Positions 11,232 to 23,110 of a DNA stretch of 23,110 bases are shown here, one piece after another. This DNA comes from a virus. The stretch is taken from the IMG/VR virus record IMGVR_UViG_3300029267_004588, positions 1-23,110 of that record. One strand, given 5' to 3'. How positions within the stretch are numbered: the stretch's first letter is position 1; the number at the start of each line of letters is the position of its first letter. The notes beneath the pieces were generated by a model. That model had not been told where the DNA came from. It did no database searches and was given only the letters and a program-made list of their open reading frames with translations. The translations under genes and the position numbers were made by a program.

Positions 11232-11408
11232 CTAATCCAACAATCCTTGTTCTTTTAGAAAATCAAGTATCAATTTTCTAAAATTTATGTTTTTTTCTTT
11301 TAGATTCTTTTGTAAAATTTCATAATCATCTTTTTTAACACAGATTGATTTTGTGATATATGTTTTTTTTCTATATTCTATTTGATATTTATACGGGTCT
11401 TTTTTCAT
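11232..11408 (-). CDS. Small basic RHH-like protein, first gene of replication operon
   Basis: This 58-residue protein has AAGGAGAGATTAAA before its ATG. It reads KKTYITKSICVKKDDYEILQ, then NLKEKNINFRKLILDFLKEQ. A beta-like segment followed by two helices, with the pattern of CopG/Arc proteins, suggests a DNA-binding dimer. It is the first gene after the consensus promoter at 11437-11465, where two CGATAT elements flank the -10 box and could be its operator. The initiator gene begins 15 bp after its stop. Autoregulation of replication genes is inferred, not shown. Confidence 0.72.
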   Translation of the reverse strand: MKKDPYKYQIEYRKKTYITKSICVKKDDYEILQKNLKEKNINFRKLILDFLKEQGLLD

Positions 11409-11483: not shown

Positions 11484-11741
11484 TAAAAAAAACGACTTTT
11501 AAAGTCGCTTTAATTTAATCATTAAATTATATTGAACCATATTAAAAATTTAGCAATGAAAATAATATTACAAAAATAACAAAACTCTGTATTTTTTAGT
11601 GAATATATTAAAAACAAAACAAACTATAACTAAATAAAGTTTTTTATAATTTTTCTTTTTTTAGAATTTATATACCAACCAAACGAAAGAGAAAAAAAGA
11701 AAGCCGACTTCATTTAATTTTTTATATATATATTTTTGAAT
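11484..11741 (-). ncRNA. Putative ~255-nt leftward non-coding RNA
   Basis: A near-consensus promoter (11748-11776) and a symmetric terminator (11493-11507 followed by eight Ts on the minus strand) bracket about 255 nt without a supported gene. The only early ATG frame, 27 codons, lacks a ribosome binding site. Near its 5' end the transcript contains AAGTCGGCTTT, which could pair with the terminator arm AAAGCGACTTT, so alternative folding may control termination. It lies between the replication operon and the rightward PspA operon. Inferred from signals only. Confidence 0.5.
11493..11507. terminator. Bidirectional terminator (CGACTTT palindrome)
   Basis: CGACTTT and AAAGTCG are separated by a single T, so a few inner pairs must open to form the loop. 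On the minus strand TTTTTTTT follows, on the plus strand CTTTAATTT. It lies 28 bp upstream of the replication promoter and insulates it from the upstream leftward transcript. Confidence 0.7.
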
Positions 11742-11747
11742 AAATAT

Positions 11748-11776
11748 ATTATAACTTATTTTTACCTAAAAGTCAA
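11748..11776 (-). promoter_or_regulatory. Near-consensus leftward promoter of the putative RNA
   Basis: On the minus strand TTGACT (11771-11776), a 17-nt spacer and TATAAT (11748-11753). It diverges from the rightward promoter at 11808-11836. The two -35 regions form an inverted repeat (AAGTCAAA and TTTGACTT) about 30 bp apart that could serve a shared regulator. Confidence 0.75.
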
Positions 11777-11807: not shown

Positions 11808-11836
11808 TTGACTTTATTATATTATTATATTATTAT
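11808..11836 (+). promoter_or_regulatory. Rightward promoter of PspA operon, -10 inside tandem repeat
   Basis: TTGACT (11808-11813) is followed 17 nt later by TATTAT (11831-11836). The -10 hexamer is the beginning of the third copy of the 8-bp repeat, and the spacer is made of the first two copies. Transcription would start near 11843, still inside the repeat. Confidence 0.65.
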
Positions 11837-11899
11837 ATTATTATATTATTATATTATTATATTATTATATTATTATATTATTATATTATTATATTATTA
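11815..11899 (+). repeat. Ten perfect copies of 8-bp repeat TATTATAT
   Basis: Ten uninterrupted TATTATAT units run from 11815 to 11894 with a partial eleventh to 11899. They form the spacer, -10 box and leader of the rightward operon and stop about 20 bp before its first start codon. Copy number is likely to vary by slippage. Confidence 0.95.
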
Positions 11900-11919
11900 A
11901 GATAAGGGAGTATATTTAT

Positions 11920-12321
11920 ATGCTGAGTTTATTAATGTCGATAATTTTCTTATATTTGCAAAAATATTTAATATCTACAGTTTTTTTATTATTTTTTGCA
12001 TTTGGAAGGTTATATAAATCTTATTGGAATAAAAAACACATTATCTATTATTTTCTTGGTGATGATAATTATAAAAATTATAAAATAAGAAGAAATATAA
12101 AAGAAAAAATAAGCAATTTGATATTTAATATAATAATCGATATATTGATTATATTAAATCCAATAGTATGTAAAATATTTTTAATATTAAGCATATTTTT
12201 TACAATATCAAGTTTTATAGTTAATATATATTTTGAAAATCAATTAGAAGAATTAAATTGCACTAAAGAAGAACAAAAAGAAATATTGGCAAAATTAAAA
12301 AAGGCAAATAAAAATAAATGA
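11920..12321 (+). CDS. Membrane protein, first gene of PspA operon
   Basis: This 133-residue protein has about four hydrophobic segments: two near 4-28 (LSLLMSIIFLYL and LISTVFLLFFAF) and two near 68-105 (IIIDILIILNPIV and LILSIFFTISSFIV). A basic Lys/Tyr-rich loop lies between them. The C-terminal 28 residues are charged and helical (ENQLEELNCTKEEQKEILAK). AAGGGAG lies 9 nt upstream of the ATG. Layout resembles the next gene, so the two may be distant paralogues. No family is recognised. It is encoded against the direction of all neighbouring phage modules, typical of an acquired accessory cassette. Confidence 0.75.
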   Translation: MLSLLMSIIFLYLQKYLISTVFLLFFAFGRLYKSYWNKKHIIYYFLGDDNYKNYKIRRNIKEKISNLIFNIIIDILIILNPIVCKIFLILSIFFTISSFIVNIYFENQLEELNCTKEEQKEILAKLKKANKNK

Positions 12322-12351
12322 AAAATATGAAAATTAAGAAAGGAGTTCTAT

Positions 12352-12873
12352 ATGAAATTTATTAGAAAAAATTTTTATTTTATAATAGGTATTATATTAG
12401 GGTTAACTGGTTTTAAGATGATAGGATTATTATTAATTCTAATATCACTAAATAGATTAATGATGACGGCAGTAAAAATTCCTAAACTTGTATTTGATTA
12501 TTTCGAAGATAAAACTGAAGAACTTGTATTTGATTTTTTTGAAAATAAAACTAAAATTGATAGAATAAAAGCAGAAAAAAGTAATAGTATTAACATTTAT
12601 AGATTTATTTCTCTTTCACTTCTTCTTATTATTTGCAACATATTTAAATTTATTGGAATTATATTAATAATTATATGTATAATAAGCATAATATCATTAA
12701 CTGTGGAATGGTCTAATAATTTGATATTACTTAGAAAAAAATATGAATTTGAGTTACCTACTGATTGCGATTTAGAAGAAATAAGAAAAAAATGTGAGAT
12801 TAAAAAAATGTCTATTAATATTAATTCTGCAGATGAGGAATTTGCGGTAAAATATAAAAAGTTTTTTAAGTAA
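12352..12873 (+). CDS. Membrane protein, second gene of PspA operon
   Basis: This 173-residue protein is not recognised. A hydrophobic hairpin near 8-35 (FYFIIGIILGLTGF, MIGLLLILISL) is followed by a charged stretch with an internal repeat (KLVFDYFEDKTEELVFDFFE near 45-64), then a second hydrophobic hairpin near 84-118 and a charged C-terminal domain of about 50 residues. AAGAAAGGAG precedes the ATG. The order, hydrophobic hairpin, loop, hydrophobic hairpin, charged tail, is that of the upstream gene. It directly precedes the PspA homologue, so a membrane-bound partner or sensor for PspA is a reasonable guess. Confidence 0.75.
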   Translation: MKFIRKNFYFIIGIILGLTGFKMIGLLLILISLNRLMMTAVKIPKLVFDYFEDKTEELVFDFFENKTKIDRIKAEKSNSINIYRFISLSLLLIICNIFKFIGIILIIICIISIISLTVEWSNNLILLRKKYEFELPTDCDLEEIRKKCEIKKMSININSADEEFAVKYKKFFK

Positions 12874-12889
12874 AAAGAAAAGGATGATA

Positions 12890-13546
12890 ATGAAGATGGG
12901 CATAATAAAAAGAATGACTAATATTTTTAGAGCAAAAGCAAATAAAATAATGAACGAATTAGAAGATCCAATTGAACTTTTAGACCAAAAAATAATTGAT
13001 ATGGAAGATAATTTAAGAGATTCTGTTGTTTCTACAGCACAAGTTTTAGGAAATATTCACGAAATGAAAACTAAAATGGACGAAACAAAAAAGGAAATTG
13101 AAGATTTAGAAAATAAAATTACATTTGCTTTATCTAAAAATAATGAAGAATTAGCGAGAAAAGTTTTACAGAAAAAAATGGAACTAGATACAAAATATGA
13201 AAATTTAAAGAAAAATTATGAAGAAGCAAAAGAAAGAGGAGAAACATTAAAATCAAGTTTAGAAAAACTAGAAAAAGAATTAGAAAGAACTAAATCGTAT
13301 AGAGACGAAGCAAAGGCAAGAATGTACAATACTACAATTTCATCAGCAATTAATGAAATTATTTCTGATGTTAGTTCAAAAGTAAATAAAATTAATATCG
13401 ACGAAATAGAAAGAAAAATTCAAAAAAAAGAAGCATATTCAAAAGGTTTGGAAGAATTGAAAGGCAAATCCATTGATGAGGAATTCGAAGAATTAAATAA
13501 ACTTGATTTAAATTCTGAACTTGAAAAATATAAAAATAAACAATAA
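12890..13546 (+). CDS. pspA: PspA/IM30 family membrane-stress protein
   Basis: PspA proteins coat damaged inner membrane, limit proton leakage and can form scaffolds related to ESCRT-III. The product of about 218 residues begins MGIIKRMTNIFRAKANKIMN, the amphipathic membrane-binding helix of the family. It then has NELEDPIELLDQKIIDMEDN, the characteristic EDP..LLDQ..DM motif, followed by a long coiled coil to residue 150 and shorter helices to the end. Three ATGs compete: 12884 abuts the AAAAGG site, 12890 has 6-nt spacing and is preferred, and 12896 matches the family's usual MGI start. Two membrane-protein genes precede it. Phage PspA might counter membrane damage from phage proteins or rival phages; this is inference. 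Confidence 0.9.
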   Translation: MKMGIIKRMTNIFRAKANKIMNELEDPIELLDQKIIDMEDNLRDSVVSTAQVLGNIHEMKTKMDETKKEIEDLENKITFALSKNNEELARKVLQKKMELDTKYENLKKNYEEAKERGETLKSSLEKLEKELERTKSYRDEAKARMYNTTISSAINEIISDVSSKVNKINIDEIERKIQKKEAYSKGLEELKGKSIDEEFEELNKLDLNSELEKYKNKQ

Positions 13547-13549
13547 TAA

Positions 13550-13620
13550 AAGGCAAATGAAAATAAATGAAAAAGATGAAAATTAAAAAAGGGAAGTGAA
13601 AATAAATGAAAAATATGAAA
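13550..13620 (+). repeat. Duplicated 45-bp gene junction in PspA operon
   Basis: 13550-13594 repeats, with a few mismatches, the junction at 12301-12345 that joins the first and second genes (both begin AAGGCAAAT and include GAAAATTAA). A third partial copy (AAATAAATGAAAAATATGAAA core, 13600-13620) contains the start codon of the last gene. The junctions look like products of local duplication. Confidence 0.75.
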
Positions 13621-13812
13621 TTATTTATTGCTATAACTGTAATTTTGCTTTATCGCTTATATCATAAATACAAAGTTTTGGAAGAAAAAACTAATGATAT
13701 AATTTATAAGCATAATAAATTGGTTGATAAATATGAAAAAATATTTGATGTAGTTAAGATGCACGATATAGAAATTAAATACATTAGTAAAGAAATTAAA
13801 TACCTTAATTAA
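13606..13812 (+). CDS. Membrane-anchored coiled-coil protein, last gene of PspA operon
   Basis: This 68-residue protein has an N-terminal hydrophobic helix (LFIAITVILLYRLY) and then a heptad-like coiled coil to the end (LEEKTNDIIYKHNKLVDKYE, then IEIKYISKEIKYL). The purine-rich GGGAAGTGA precedes the ATG at 13606; an in-frame ATG at 13615 is an alternative. It ends about 65 bp before a bidirectional terminator. The single helix plus coiled coil resembles small partners of PspA such as PspB or PspC in outline only, with no sequence match claimed. Confidence 0.7.
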   Translation: MKNMKLFIAITVILLYRLYHKYKVLEEKTNDIIYKHNKLVDKYEKIFDVVKMHDIEIKYISKEIKYLN

Positions 13813-13875
13813 GAAGAAATTTAAAGAGATGTATAATATGCTGAAATGAAATTCGAAAAAAGACTACAAAAAAAT

Positions 13876-13903
13876 AAAAGATAGGATTTAAATTCTATCT
13901 TTT
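13876..13903. terminator. Bidirectional terminator between converging operons
   Basis: AAAAGATAG (13876-13884) pairs with CTATCTTTT (13895-13903), and the loop contains the palindrome ATTTAAAT, so the stem can extend to the centre. A run on the 5' side and T run on the 3' side allow function in both directions, for the rightward PspA operon and for the leftward genes ending at 13902. Confidence 0.75.
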
Positions 13904-14255
13904 ACATATTTATATAAATTCCATTATTGTTTATTTTGATTTTAATTTTACTGTTTTTTATACATCTTTTATTAATTACTTTCGAACTTATTTGAAAAAA
14001 ATTCACGGATAGACAATTCATAAAAGTTAAAATTTGAGAATTAGTTCTATAATTATTTGTTATTTGATTAACAGATAACGGATTAAATAAAAAACTCAGA
14101 AAATGTTTGAAATTTGATTTTAAATTAGCACCAAAATCTGAACTATTAACAAATTTTATAGAGTTAATAAAATTAGAAAATGGGACATAAGCATCCCATT
14201 TTTTTTGTGTGGAAGGGTCAAAAATTGTTAATTTTAAAAAATAAACTTCACACAT
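13902..14255 (-). CDS. Hypothetical late protein, paralogue of the upstream gene
   Basis: This 117-residue protein starts at an ATG with AAGGAGGGGTTTT upstream. Residues about 45-100 align with the neighbouring 14296-14724 product: FLSFLFNPL against FLSFLQLLF, then YRTNSQILTFMNCLSVNFFQ against YTTPTQMLTFMDYIAPEFDK. The N-terminus also shares an LTIFDP/LTLNVVDP pattern. This copy is more basic and Asn/Lys-rich, with a positively charged tail, and looks faster evolving. It is the last gene of the leftward late block, ending in the shared terminator. Function unknown; a structural or spike-associated role is possible from context. Confidence 0.72.
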   Translation of the reverse strand: MCEVYFLKLTIFDPSTQKKWDAYVPFSNFINSIKFVNSSDFGANLKSNFKHFLSFLFNPLSVNQITNNYRTNSQILTFMNCLSVNFFQISSKVINKRCIKNSKIKIKINNNGIYINM

Positions 14256-14295: not shown

Positions 14296-14724
14296 TTATC
14301 CAATAAAATCCACATACATATTTTGTGCATTGTTTAAACCTAAAATTGAGCCAGTAGAATTGAATTGTTGTTCATATGAATAAATAGATTCTGCTGTTAA
14401 TTGAGCATATTTATCAAATTCAGGTGCAATATAGTCCATAAATGTTAACATTTGTGTTGGAGTAGTGTAAACTCCAGAAATTGCTGTTGCATCTCCCTCT
14501 GAAAATAATAATTGAAGGAATGAAAGGAAATTTGCTTGTTGAGTAGCAACCGCTGTGTTTTCATCCCCTAAAACATTTTTAAGAGAAGTATTTGCATAAG
14601 TAACTGCAGTATCAACAGAAGCAGTTGAAGGTGTAGCAGTCCAAGTTGTTGCTAAAATTGGGTCTACAACATTTAAAGTTATAGTTAAAACAGATGGTAT
14701 ATTTACTGTGCTAGAATATGCCAT
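14296..14724 (-). CDS. Hypothetical late protein, Ala/Thr-rich
   Basis: This 142-residue acidic protein has TTTAGGAGGTTTTTT before its ATG. It is rich in Ala, Thr, Ser and Gln, opens with a beta-like segment (SVLTITLNVVDPILATTW) and continues with predicted helices (NFLSFLQLLFSEGDAT, PTQMLTFMDYIAPEFDKYAQ). The composition is typical of secreted or virion proteins and differs from the Lys/Asn/Ile-rich replication proteins. It follows the probable spike gene, separated by a terminator, and has a diverged paralogue immediately downstream. No family recognised. Confidence 0.75.
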   Translation of the reverse strand: MAYSSTVNIPSVLTITLNVVDPILATTWTATPSTASVDTAVTYANTSLKNVLGDENTAVATQQANFLSFLQLLFSEGDATAISGVYTTPTQMLTFMDYIAPEFDKYAQLTAESIYSYEQQFNSTGSILGLNNAQNMYVDFIG

Positions 14725-14776: not shown

Positions 14777-14806
14777 CTTGCTCAAAATTCAGCAATTAAG
14801 AGCAAG
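14777..14806 (-). terminator. Possible terminator at end of spike gene
   Basis: CTTGCTC (14777-14783) and GAGCAAG (14800-14806) form a 7-bp stem around a 16-nt loop, overlapping the spike stop codon. On the minus strand AATACTTTTTATT follows. The long loop makes it a moderate candidate. Confidence 0.45.
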
Positions 14807-16079
14807 TACAACATAATTTTCCTAAAAATTCAAAACAATTTGTTTGATTTAAAGTAAAAAGGGGATTTGTTCCTTGAAGTTCGTCCCAACCAGCATAAAT
14901 ACTTGTAGGATTTGTAGCAGAAATCCAACCGCTAGTAAATGTTTGATTTGTTATGCCATTATTTTGTTCAAAAATAGTAGTAGTTCCAGTAGTTGCTCCA
15001 AATTCTGTATAAACTCCAATAACACCTTTTCCAGCGGTATTTTGAAAAGTATTATTAGTAATAACAATAAATTCAAAAATAGAATTGTCAGGCGAACTAA
15101 ACAGAATCGGCATATTACCTTCCAAATTAGTTGAATTTCCAATTATAAATAATTTGAAATCATTTCCCTTGAATTCTTCAATACCTAGAAAATGTCTTAA
15201 AGTAAAAGTTCCAGCGAGTTGTGTGTTATTTTGCAAGAGTAAAGTTCCAGATAAATCCCAAGAAGGAACTGTTATATTGCTAATACTCACGAACCAACAA
15301 CGACTGTCTCCACTACCAGTTGTGAAAGTATTATTCGCTATTATATAATCATTTTTTATATTTTTAATAAAAATATATCTAAAAGAATTATTTAATTGAG
15401 GAGAAGCATAATAAAATTCACAATTTGTTACTTGAAGTCCAGCAGAATTTGAAGAAATTCCAAATTCATTAACTCCAATTTTGCAATTGTCAATATACAC
15501 ATCCGTTAATAGTGCATTTCCAATAACAATACAAGTCTCAATAGACAATGTTTGTTGATAAGTCATTCTAATTTCAAAATCTCTAAAAACAAAAGTTCCG
15601 CTTGATGGACTTACATTAAAAATATATGGAACTCCACTAACAGGAGGAGCGGTCATTTCAATAACAGTTCCTACTTGCCCTCTAATAGTTACAGGGGTAA
15701 ACATACTTAGAGATTGTGTGACAGTAAAAGTTTCATTAGCATTTAATAAAAGTTCATCACCAGCAGATGCCACAGCATAAGCAGAAGCAATTGTAGTGTA
15801 AGTTTGTCCAGTTCCAACTAAAATAGTATTTCCAGTTGGTTGTGGAATTTCTTTTATATTTGGAGCGGTTGGAAAAACTGTTCCAGTATTAGCAACTTTT
15901 TTATAAAGACTACAAGTGCTAATTTCTAAAACAGTATCACCAATATTTCCTATAGAGCAATCTAAAGTTTCGCTAGTTGCCAAGAAACTTGCTCCATCTT
16001 TACCATTTTTCCCATCTTTACCATTTCTACCAATACTAAAATTATTATTAGTAGTTTTTGCAATTATATTAGTATTCAT
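14796..16079 (-). CDS. Probable receptor-binding spike: collagen-like linker plus beta-helix
   Basis: This 427-residue protein has a short N-terminal segment, then five Gly-X-Y triplets (GRNGKDGKNGKDG, residues 17-29) able to form a collagen-like trimer. After that come about 350 residues with the Asn-, Thr- and Val-rich periodic strands of a right-handed parallel beta-helix: QTYTTIASAYAVASAGDELL resembles the start of pectate-lyase-like spikes, and NCKIG, NCEFY, NNTFT and NNTFQ are probable turn positions. The C-terminus ends in a Cys cluster (CCTCS). Beta-helix trimers of this type bind or cut host surface glycans. There is no ribosome binding site; the ATG lies 3 nt after the previous stop, suggesting reinitiation. 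A head fibre or decoration protein is an alternative to a tail spike. Confidence 0.72.
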   Translation of the reverse strand: MNTNIIAKTTNNNFSIGRNGKDGKNGKDGASFLATSETLDCSIGNIGDTVLEISTCSLYKKVANTGTVFPTAPNIKEIPQPTGNTILVGTGQTYTTIASAYAVASAGDELLLNANETFTVTQSLSMFTPVTIRGQVGTVIEMTAPPVSGVPYIFNVSPSSGTFVFRDFEIRMTYQQTLSIETCIVIGNALLTDVYIDNCKIGVNEFGISSNSAGLQVTNCEFYYASPQLNNSFRYIFIKNIKNDYIIANNTFTTGSGDSRCWFVSISNITVPSWDLSGTLLLQNNTQLAGTFTLRHFLGIEEFKGNDFKLFIIGNSTNLEGNMPILFSSPDNSIFEFIVITNNTFQNTAGKGVIGVYTEFGATTGTTTIFEQNNGITNQTFTSGWISATNPTSIYAGWDELQGTNPLFTLNQTNCFEFLGKLCCTCS

Positions 16080-22393: not shown

Positions 22394-23110
22394 TTACTTT
22401 TCTATGACTGGCATTCTGTTTGTTTCATCCCAAGAAACTTTAAAACCTAATTTTTCTAAATCACGAAGTTTAATATAATTTGTACCAGCATCTAAAATTG
22501 AAGAAACTGTTTTTTCTTCTCCATCAAATAAAACTTTAGTATCTTTTGGTGAATTTAATTTTTCAATTACAGGCATTTTTTTATTTTCATCATAAGAAAT
22601 TTTTAATTCCATTTTATCTAAATCTCTTAATCTTACATAATTTTCTTCCTTTTCTAAAATAGCAGAAACAGTTTGTTCCTTATTTTCCATTAAAACTTTT
22701 AAATCTCTTAACATATATTTTTTCTCCTCTTTATTTGTCGTGGTTGAATTTCCAGTAGACATCTCCCATTTCATTTTCACATCATTTGGCATAACATATT
22801 TTTTACTTGATATATCACTAACTGTTCTGCCATTTGTAAATTGGCAATGGGGTCTGTCCACAGGGTTTGTCCAATGTCCTCCCCATTCTCCTCCCATTTC
22901 AGTCCATATTTTGCCTACTGCTTCAAAAAAAGCAATATCCTTGAATTCTTGTCCTTTAATATTTTTGCAAAAATCGAAAGCGAGGCGATGGTTGTGCAAT
23001 GATTGTCCACCTCTTAATTTCGTAACTATTGGTCTTTGATTAAACAACATATTTTGGTACTCATTATCGCGATAAGTTGAAGTTATTAATACTGGCAAAC
23101 CTTTTTCTTT
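22394..23110 (-). CDS. Endolysin: M15 peptidase with two wall-binding repeats (5' end outside window)
   Basis: The visible 239 codons run off the right edge. TTG at 23098 is probably internal, since the frame continues as KEKG before LPVLITSTYRDNEYQNML, as expected for the family. The M15A-type L-Ala-D-Glu peptidase core has the zinc motif SLHNHRLAFDF (usual SxHxxGxAxD, with Gly replaced by Arg), EMGGEWGGHW and DRPHCQF, giving ligands His, Asp and His. Two repeats of about 45 residues follow (TVSAILEKEENYVRLRDLDK and TVSSILDAGTNYIKLRDLEK), like the stalk repeats of Cu-amine-oxidase N-terminal type found in surface proteins of clostridia and relatives, and may bind the wall. It cleaves peptidoglycan peptides at lysis. 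Holin candidates follow. Confidence 0.92.
   Translation of the reverse strand, partial: KEKGLPVLITSTYRDNEYQNMLFNQRPIVTKLRGGQSLHNHRLAFDFCKNIKGQEFKDIAFFEAVGKIWTEMGGEWGGHWTNPVDRPHCQFTNGRTVSDISSKKYVMPNDVKMKWEMSTGNSTTTNKEEKKYMLRDLKVLMENKEQTVSAILEKEENYVRLRDLDKMELKISYDENKKMPVIEKLNSPKDTKVLFDGEEKTVSSILDAGTNYIKLRDLEKLGFKVSWDETNRMPVIEK

Follow-up and report, generated by a model that had tools for sequence, protein, structure and literature searches.

A four-gene phage cassette around a Clostridiaceae-type PspA with orphan partners

Proteins of the PspA family bind stressed membranes through an N-terminal helix and polymerize. In Bacillus subtilis, the small protein LiaI serves as the membrane anchor of the PspA homologue LiaH (PMC9239133). 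PspA homologues have also been reported on phage genomes: in the Salmonella Kuttervirus SeF3a (phrog_1203), where a role against abortive infection (Abi) was hypothesized (PMC9409062), and in the Jug phages, where pspA adjoins terD and is transcribed (PMC12363816). The main texts of two surveys of phage shock protein (PSP) systems (PMC11237479 and PMC9239133) do not mention prophage, virus(es) or Clostridi. Here, a cassette of four genes built around a pspA gene is described from the IMG/VR virus record IMGVR_UViG_3300029267_004588, the whole of which (23,110 bases) forms the window analyzed. The original prediction for this DNA had proposed an undescribed system; that claim is weakened by the reports of phage PspA, while the particular arrangement was not found elsewhere. 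Most of the features it described were borne out, and its interpretation was supported in part. What was known already is phage-carried PspA, and what is new is a PspA with three orphan partners, two of which are clearly membrane proteins.

The phage PspA and its ancestry

The pspA gene (12896–13546, plus strand) encodes a full-length, 216-residue protein of the PspA/IM30 family (ESCRT-III superfamily) and of clostridial type. Its frame is open from 12884, and the ATG at 12896 (MGIIKRM...) is the likely start supported by homology. Against the Pfam family PF04012 the protein scores 114 bits (E = 9.4e-33; curated cut-off 33.9 bits), with residues 6–215 aligned to positions 1–211 of the 220 in the profile, and a search at the DNA level gives 113.1 bits. 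The full PspA-like protein that had been predicted is thus present.

The only solved chains related to it in sequence are those of Vipp1 and PspA (E ~1e-15). In the structure model, helices span residues 2–22, 25–80, 84–160, 168–188, 193–202 and 206–213, and the best PDB matches are again all Vipp1 or PspA (Vipp1 6zvr, E 4.6e-08), with a good fit of the hairpin core and a loose global superposition. The modeled fold is that of Vipp1/PspA, a helical hairpin with further helices. The N-terminal helix (residues 1–22), which is modeled at a low predicted local distance difference test score (pLDDT), is amphipathic and basic, with a moment of 0.46 and a net charge of +4 that exceed those of two clostridial relatives. 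The C-terminal DLxxELEKYK tail is retained as well. In some chromosomal clostridial PspAs (L013 6001–6699, L107 1501–2205 and L034 4362–5072) a tail of the form LDxELEKYK is duplicated, a sequence pattern that suggests a short docking motif.

When 84,980 genomes were scanned with the phage protein, nearly all of the 31 best matches came from Clostridium, at 46–54% identity, and identity after these falls to ~31% in Bacilli and others. Of 226 Clostridiales genomes, 119 hold this Clostridiaceae-type PspA; in a class-wide set of 391 genomes, the number is only 11. Phylogenetic analysis places the phage protein with 48 Clostridiaceae-type PspAs in one clade that excludes the other Bacillota, with a support of 98 by the Shimodaira–Hasegawa-like approximate likelihood ratio test (SH-aLRT) and a stem of 3.1 changes per column. 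The phage branch is long (1.23), and its position inside the clostridial clade is unsure. Seventeen clostridial PspAs compared in detail are 57–85% identical to each other, and the phage copy is 46–56% identical to them; of the 64 columns that are invariant among the 17, it keeps 53. Judged by its grouping with chromosomal Clostridiaceae proteins, the phage PspA is a capture from a Clostridium-like host. The same placement, together with these identities, indicates that the virus probably infects Clostridium-type bacteria and that the capture was not very recent.

Partner genes and comparison with known PspA systems

The cassette occupies 11.8–13.9 kb and, as predicted, runs rightward against its surroundings, its four plus-strand open reading frames (ORFs) lying between minus-strand genes at 11232–11408 and 13902–14255. 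Each of the four is preceded by a Shine–Dalgarno-like sequence. Upstream of pspA are ORF1 (11920–12321), a polytopic orphan membrane protein of 133 residues, and ORF2 (12352–12873), a polytopic membrane protein of 173 residues with a polar C-terminal tail; each has two long hydrophobic stretches by hydropathy. These had been taken for two similar membrane proteins, and the likeness holds for layout and not for sequence, in which no similarity is detectable between the two (best E = 0.075, over 9 residues). Downstream, ORF4 (13606–13812) encodes 68 residues; a short hydrophobic segment at the N-terminus is followed by charged sequence that is coiled-coil-like by eye. Its description as a membrane-anchored coiled-coil protein is partly sustained, the membrane segment being borderline (peak hydropathy 1.2). 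No plus-strand ORF of at least 133 residues appeared in 500 dinucleotide shuffles of 11900–13900, so ORF1, ORF2 and pspA are beyond chance. Because ORFs of at least 68 residues appeared in 17 of the 500, the case for ORF4 as a gene leans on its ribosome site and its position.

No credible relatives of ORF2 were found in phages, plasmids, IMG/VR, GTDB contigs or 207 Clostridiaceae genomes, and none of ORF1 or ORF4 in phages and 205 Clostridiaceae genomes. Matches to ORF2 in 34 Clostridiaceae genomes were rejected because they consist of hydrophobic stretches and almost all fall in long frames that are unrelated; those to ORF1 and ORF4 were likewise weak, some spanning stop codons, and were rejected too. 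A structure model of ORF2 made without an alignment was uninformative (pLDDT 67). ORF2 approaches the LiaI-LiaF-TM_PspC model PF22571 below threshold (16.2 of 27 bits, E = 0.0089), and neither ORF1, ORF2 nor ORF4 matches a PspB or PspC model at threshold. A reading of the cassette as a defense system was also discarded; PADLOC gives only weak coiled-coil matches, to PspA.

The leader of the cassette is a perfect 8-bp tandem repeat, TTATTATA, present in 10.8 copies that are 100% identical (11814–11899, plus strand), upstream of the ORF1 ribosome site. A putative promoter (11808–11836, plus strand; TTGACT-17-TATTAT), assigned by its position, has its -10 element inside this repeat. The repeat may form a length-variable leader; it folds worse than its own shuffles, and no Rfam family or riboswitch matches the leader. 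At the other end, a hairpin terminator (13875–13904, -11.6 kcal/mol) lies between the convergent cassette and the leftward gene 13902–14255, with z = -5.85 on the plus strand and -4.38 on the minus strand; its U-run is positioned best for transcripts that run leftward. Of the predicted separate control, the perfect repeat and the hairpin are thus present, and the "repeat-controlled promoter" would be one of many promoter-like sites occurring at chance frequency. Within the cassette, two copies of a ~50-bp direct repeat, ~90% identical, flank ORF2 and pspA on both sides, one running from the end of ORF1 to the ORF2 ribosome site (12293–12343) and the other at the end of pspA (13542–13592), with a third partial copy at 13579–13620. 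These copies hint at modular assembly. The GC content of the cassette is low, as it is elsewhere on the contig.

The nearest comparison is with the chromosomal clostridial pspA operon, which shares the PspA clade and a membrane-protein gene directly upstream. Among 31 such loci, a Ser-rich membrane protein is encoded upstream in 24 and a protein of ~217 residues downstream in 23, with both in 21. However, neither partner has a counterpart in the phage, where ORF1, ORF2 and ORF4 are found instead, and none of the chromosomal partner proteins resembles these three. The B. subtilis LiaIH operon is similar in that the gene(s) for small membrane protein(s) immediately precede that of a PspA homologue, but the phage PspA reaches only 46.8 of 380 bits on the LiaH model, and the ORF2 match to LiaI-LiaF-TM is sub-threshold. 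No LiaRS or LiaF was recognized among the ORFs of the window as read; the window is a fragment, and no domain search aimed at LiaRS was run. E. coli PspABC likewise combines PspA with membrane proteins, and the layout of ORF4, an N-terminal hydrophobic segment followed by a helix, recalls PspB. In contrast to that system, no PspB or PspC is found at threshold, no PspF was seen, and the phage PspA scores 75 of 243 bits on the equivalog model. The Kuttervirus SeF3a and Jug phages also carry a PspA homologue on a phage genome, but with other hosts and partners, and the PHROG matches of the window PspA do not include phrog_1203.

Four further PspA contigs were found in a scan of IMG/VR, one of 187 kb (L092) and three of 49–120 kb that have the same genes around pspA (L093–L095). 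Like the window, they carry a PspA/IM30 protein above the PF04012 cut-off on a phage contig together with partner genes. Their proteins are nevertheless distant from the window PspA (26–27% identity) and fall on a separate branch with a support of 98. The four are classed as large phages by their IMG/VR listing and by gene content, with a tail fiber and an RNA ligase gene on L095 and genes for primase and SbcC on L092; no terminase was found in them with PF03237. In L093 (8338–10696), and also in L094 and L095, an SPFH/Band_7 lipoprotein-like gene lies upstream of a pspA whose product starts with a hydrophobic segment, and this pair may constitute another phage-borne PSP-like set. In L092, a helix-turn-helix-like gene adjoins pspA. 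Two GenBank records from human faeces labeled "Bacteriophage sp." (MT835668 and MT839532) were discarded as bacterial contigs; their other genes include a tRNA synthetase, UvrD/PcrA and tgt-yajC, and their labels would mislead counts of phage PspA. An Acinetobacter phage ME3 protein named PspA in BFVD does not reach PF04012.

The mosaic site and the role of the cassette

A near-identical sibling contig, L002, matches the window with few differences per kb (>99% identity) up to ~11.52 kb, with more only near the left end of the window. Inside the 11.5-kb block, 95 differences fall directly after a leftward intrinsic terminator (11489–11511, minus strand; AAAGCGACTTTAAAAGTCGTTTT followed by a T-run). 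This terminator lies just upstream of the promoter of the early (replication) operon and forms the left border of the cassette region. The cassette begins 300 bases beyond the divergence point, and L002 ends ~60–130 bp into the divergent region. Such sharp divergence upstream of the cassette is what a mosaic accessory (moron) site would be expected to show. Other features of a moron are also seen, in that the cassette is a separate unit by strand and hairpin and has host ancestry; the sibling diverges at the site and its contig ends before the cassette.

We put at about one half the probability that the cassette is a phage accessory module, or moron, built around a captured Clostridiaceae-like PspA and sealing the host membrane during infection or lysogeny. 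Membrane protection appears to be its likeliest function, given a PspA of full length that retains most of the invariant clostridial columns. The cassette would be transcribed from its own promoter in infection or lysogeny, and PspA would polymerize on the inner face of the cytoplasmic membrane. By analogy with LiaI, ORF1 and ORF2, perhaps together with ORF4, may recruit, regulate or release PspA, replacing the chromosomal partners. The polymer would seal leaks, limit leakage and uphold the proton-motive force. The threats countered could be the entry or lysis proteins of the phage itself, membrane-damaging Abi defenses or a competing phage, and the benefit would be an infected cell that survives until progeny are made.

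Several points weigh against a membrane-sealing moron. The cassette is known from one contig only, its left edge is a low-complexity repeat, where errors of assembly can arise, and the sibling contig does not extend as far as the cassette. Promoter-like sites occur in the window at chance frequency (34 found, 32.3 expected from shuffles). No regulator, two-component system or PSP partner domain (PspB, PspC or LiaF) is present at threshold. The anchor or sensor role suggested for ORF1, ORF2 and ORF4 has hydropathy and gene order as its whole basis, because the three proteins are without known relatives. Conservation of the four genes together, which the original prediction would lead one to expect, was not observed; the set was found once, and no credible relatives of ORF1, ORF2 or ORF4 were found in the collections searched for each.

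The alternative that survives best, although unlikely, is superinfection exclusion, in which ORF1 and/or ORF2 would block DNA entry by related phages and PspA would repair damage caused by these proteins or by failed infections. A unit of its own, opposite to its neighbors at a mosaic site, is usual for lysogenic-conversion genes, and small polytopic orphan membrane proteins are like known exclusion proteins in size and layout. However, no PADLOC model matches ORF1, ORF2 or ORF4, no integrase or repressor was recognized in the 23 kb, so that lysogeny is unproven, and a repair polymer is not a usual companion of exclusion proteins. It is less probable still that the PspA polymer, instead of guarding against stress, organizes a membrane site at which the phage replicates, assembles or controls the triggering of its holin. 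The phage does lyse its host, as the endolysin gene indicates, but the cassette stands apart from the lysis genes, has the reverse polarity and is closed by a hairpin of its own. Unlike core lysis and assembly genes, it also borders a variable region, and no close relative was found in other IMG/VR phages. Keeping the cell energized, including against depolarizing Abi systems, is ranked above both exclusion and a scaffold because the function of bacterial PspA is membrane maintenance, and also because no cassette protein matches a known exclusion protein.

A passenger, meaning a stress gene taken from the host and carried without selection for any role in the phage, is just as improbable as the scaffold. 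The clostridial ancestry is clear and this type of PspA is a singleton among IMG/VR phages, but the frame is intact and most invariant positions are kept despite the long branch, whereas unselected AT-rich genes would soon gain stops; the gene also belongs to a unit of four genes that has ribosome sites and a terminator. Least probable is an assembly artifact, a wrong join at the repeat that attached to the phage either the cassette or all the sequence on its right: the left edge is indeed an 86-bp perfect repeat, and the sole independent contig diverges and ends shortly after, but the right flank is also phage-like (an endolysin and a weak tail-fiber match), 86 bp is shorter than a common short read, and the low GC content of the cassette matches the rest of the contig.

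If the cassette is indeed a membrane-sealing moron, phages carry a phage-shock response, beyond triggering that of the host. A more specific scheme can be offered tentatively: the phage may have taken pspA alone from its host and evolved its own anchors or sensors (ORF1 and ORF2) along with an adaptor resembling PspB (ORF4), the set being switched by the length-variable repeat leader and directed against a membrane-depolarizing defense or rival phages. Phage-borne PspA occurs with differing partners in unrelated phages, namely Kuttervirus, the Jug phages, the two large IMG/VR groups and the clostridial phage described here, which suggests repeated capture. Its recurrence points to a testable route to counter-defense through holding membrane potential, and, if the cassette works as proposed, the orphan membrane proteins beside the clostridial PspA would be new candidate PspA partners.

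Neighboring genes and the phage contig

The gene content of the window, together with the start of a terminase in L002, identifies the window as a fragment of a tailed-phage genome without most morphogenesis genes. The left part is nearly all leftward and holds phage replication and recombination genes, including those for a RecE-like exonuclease and DnaB, and SSB- and RecT-type genes read from the sequence; RecT relatives at 43–47% identity occur in 11 of 205 Clostridiaceae genomes. L002 extends ~760 bases beyond the left end of the window and there contains the first part of a terminase large-subunit gene (Terminase_6N, E = 4.6e-5); the match is below the family cut-off and truncated by the contig end. 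Near the terminase genes, at 543–1682, the phage has a gene of its own for a full-length sliding clamp of DNA polymerase (beta clamp, DnaN). The endolysin gene is at the right end of the window (22394–23098; phrog_2649, E = 1.6e-16). Searches with two right-hand genes and with the endolysin gave no sibling phage that shares the right-hand part.

Between the left border and the cassette, a promoter-like site divergent from the cassette (11748–11776, minus strand; TTGACT-17-TATAAT, 11 of 12 matches, of a kind found at chance frequency) lies ~240 bases upstream of the leftward terminator, with no clear gene between them. It may be that this interval (11489–11776) yields a short leftward RNA, poorly conserved in L002. 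On the far side of the cassette, the adjacent leftward genes 13902–14255 and 14296–14724 appear by eye to be diverged paralogues, with a common ILTFMNC/MLTFMDY stretch, and this pair is adjoined by a gene for a collagen-like protein of tail-fiber type (14796–16079).
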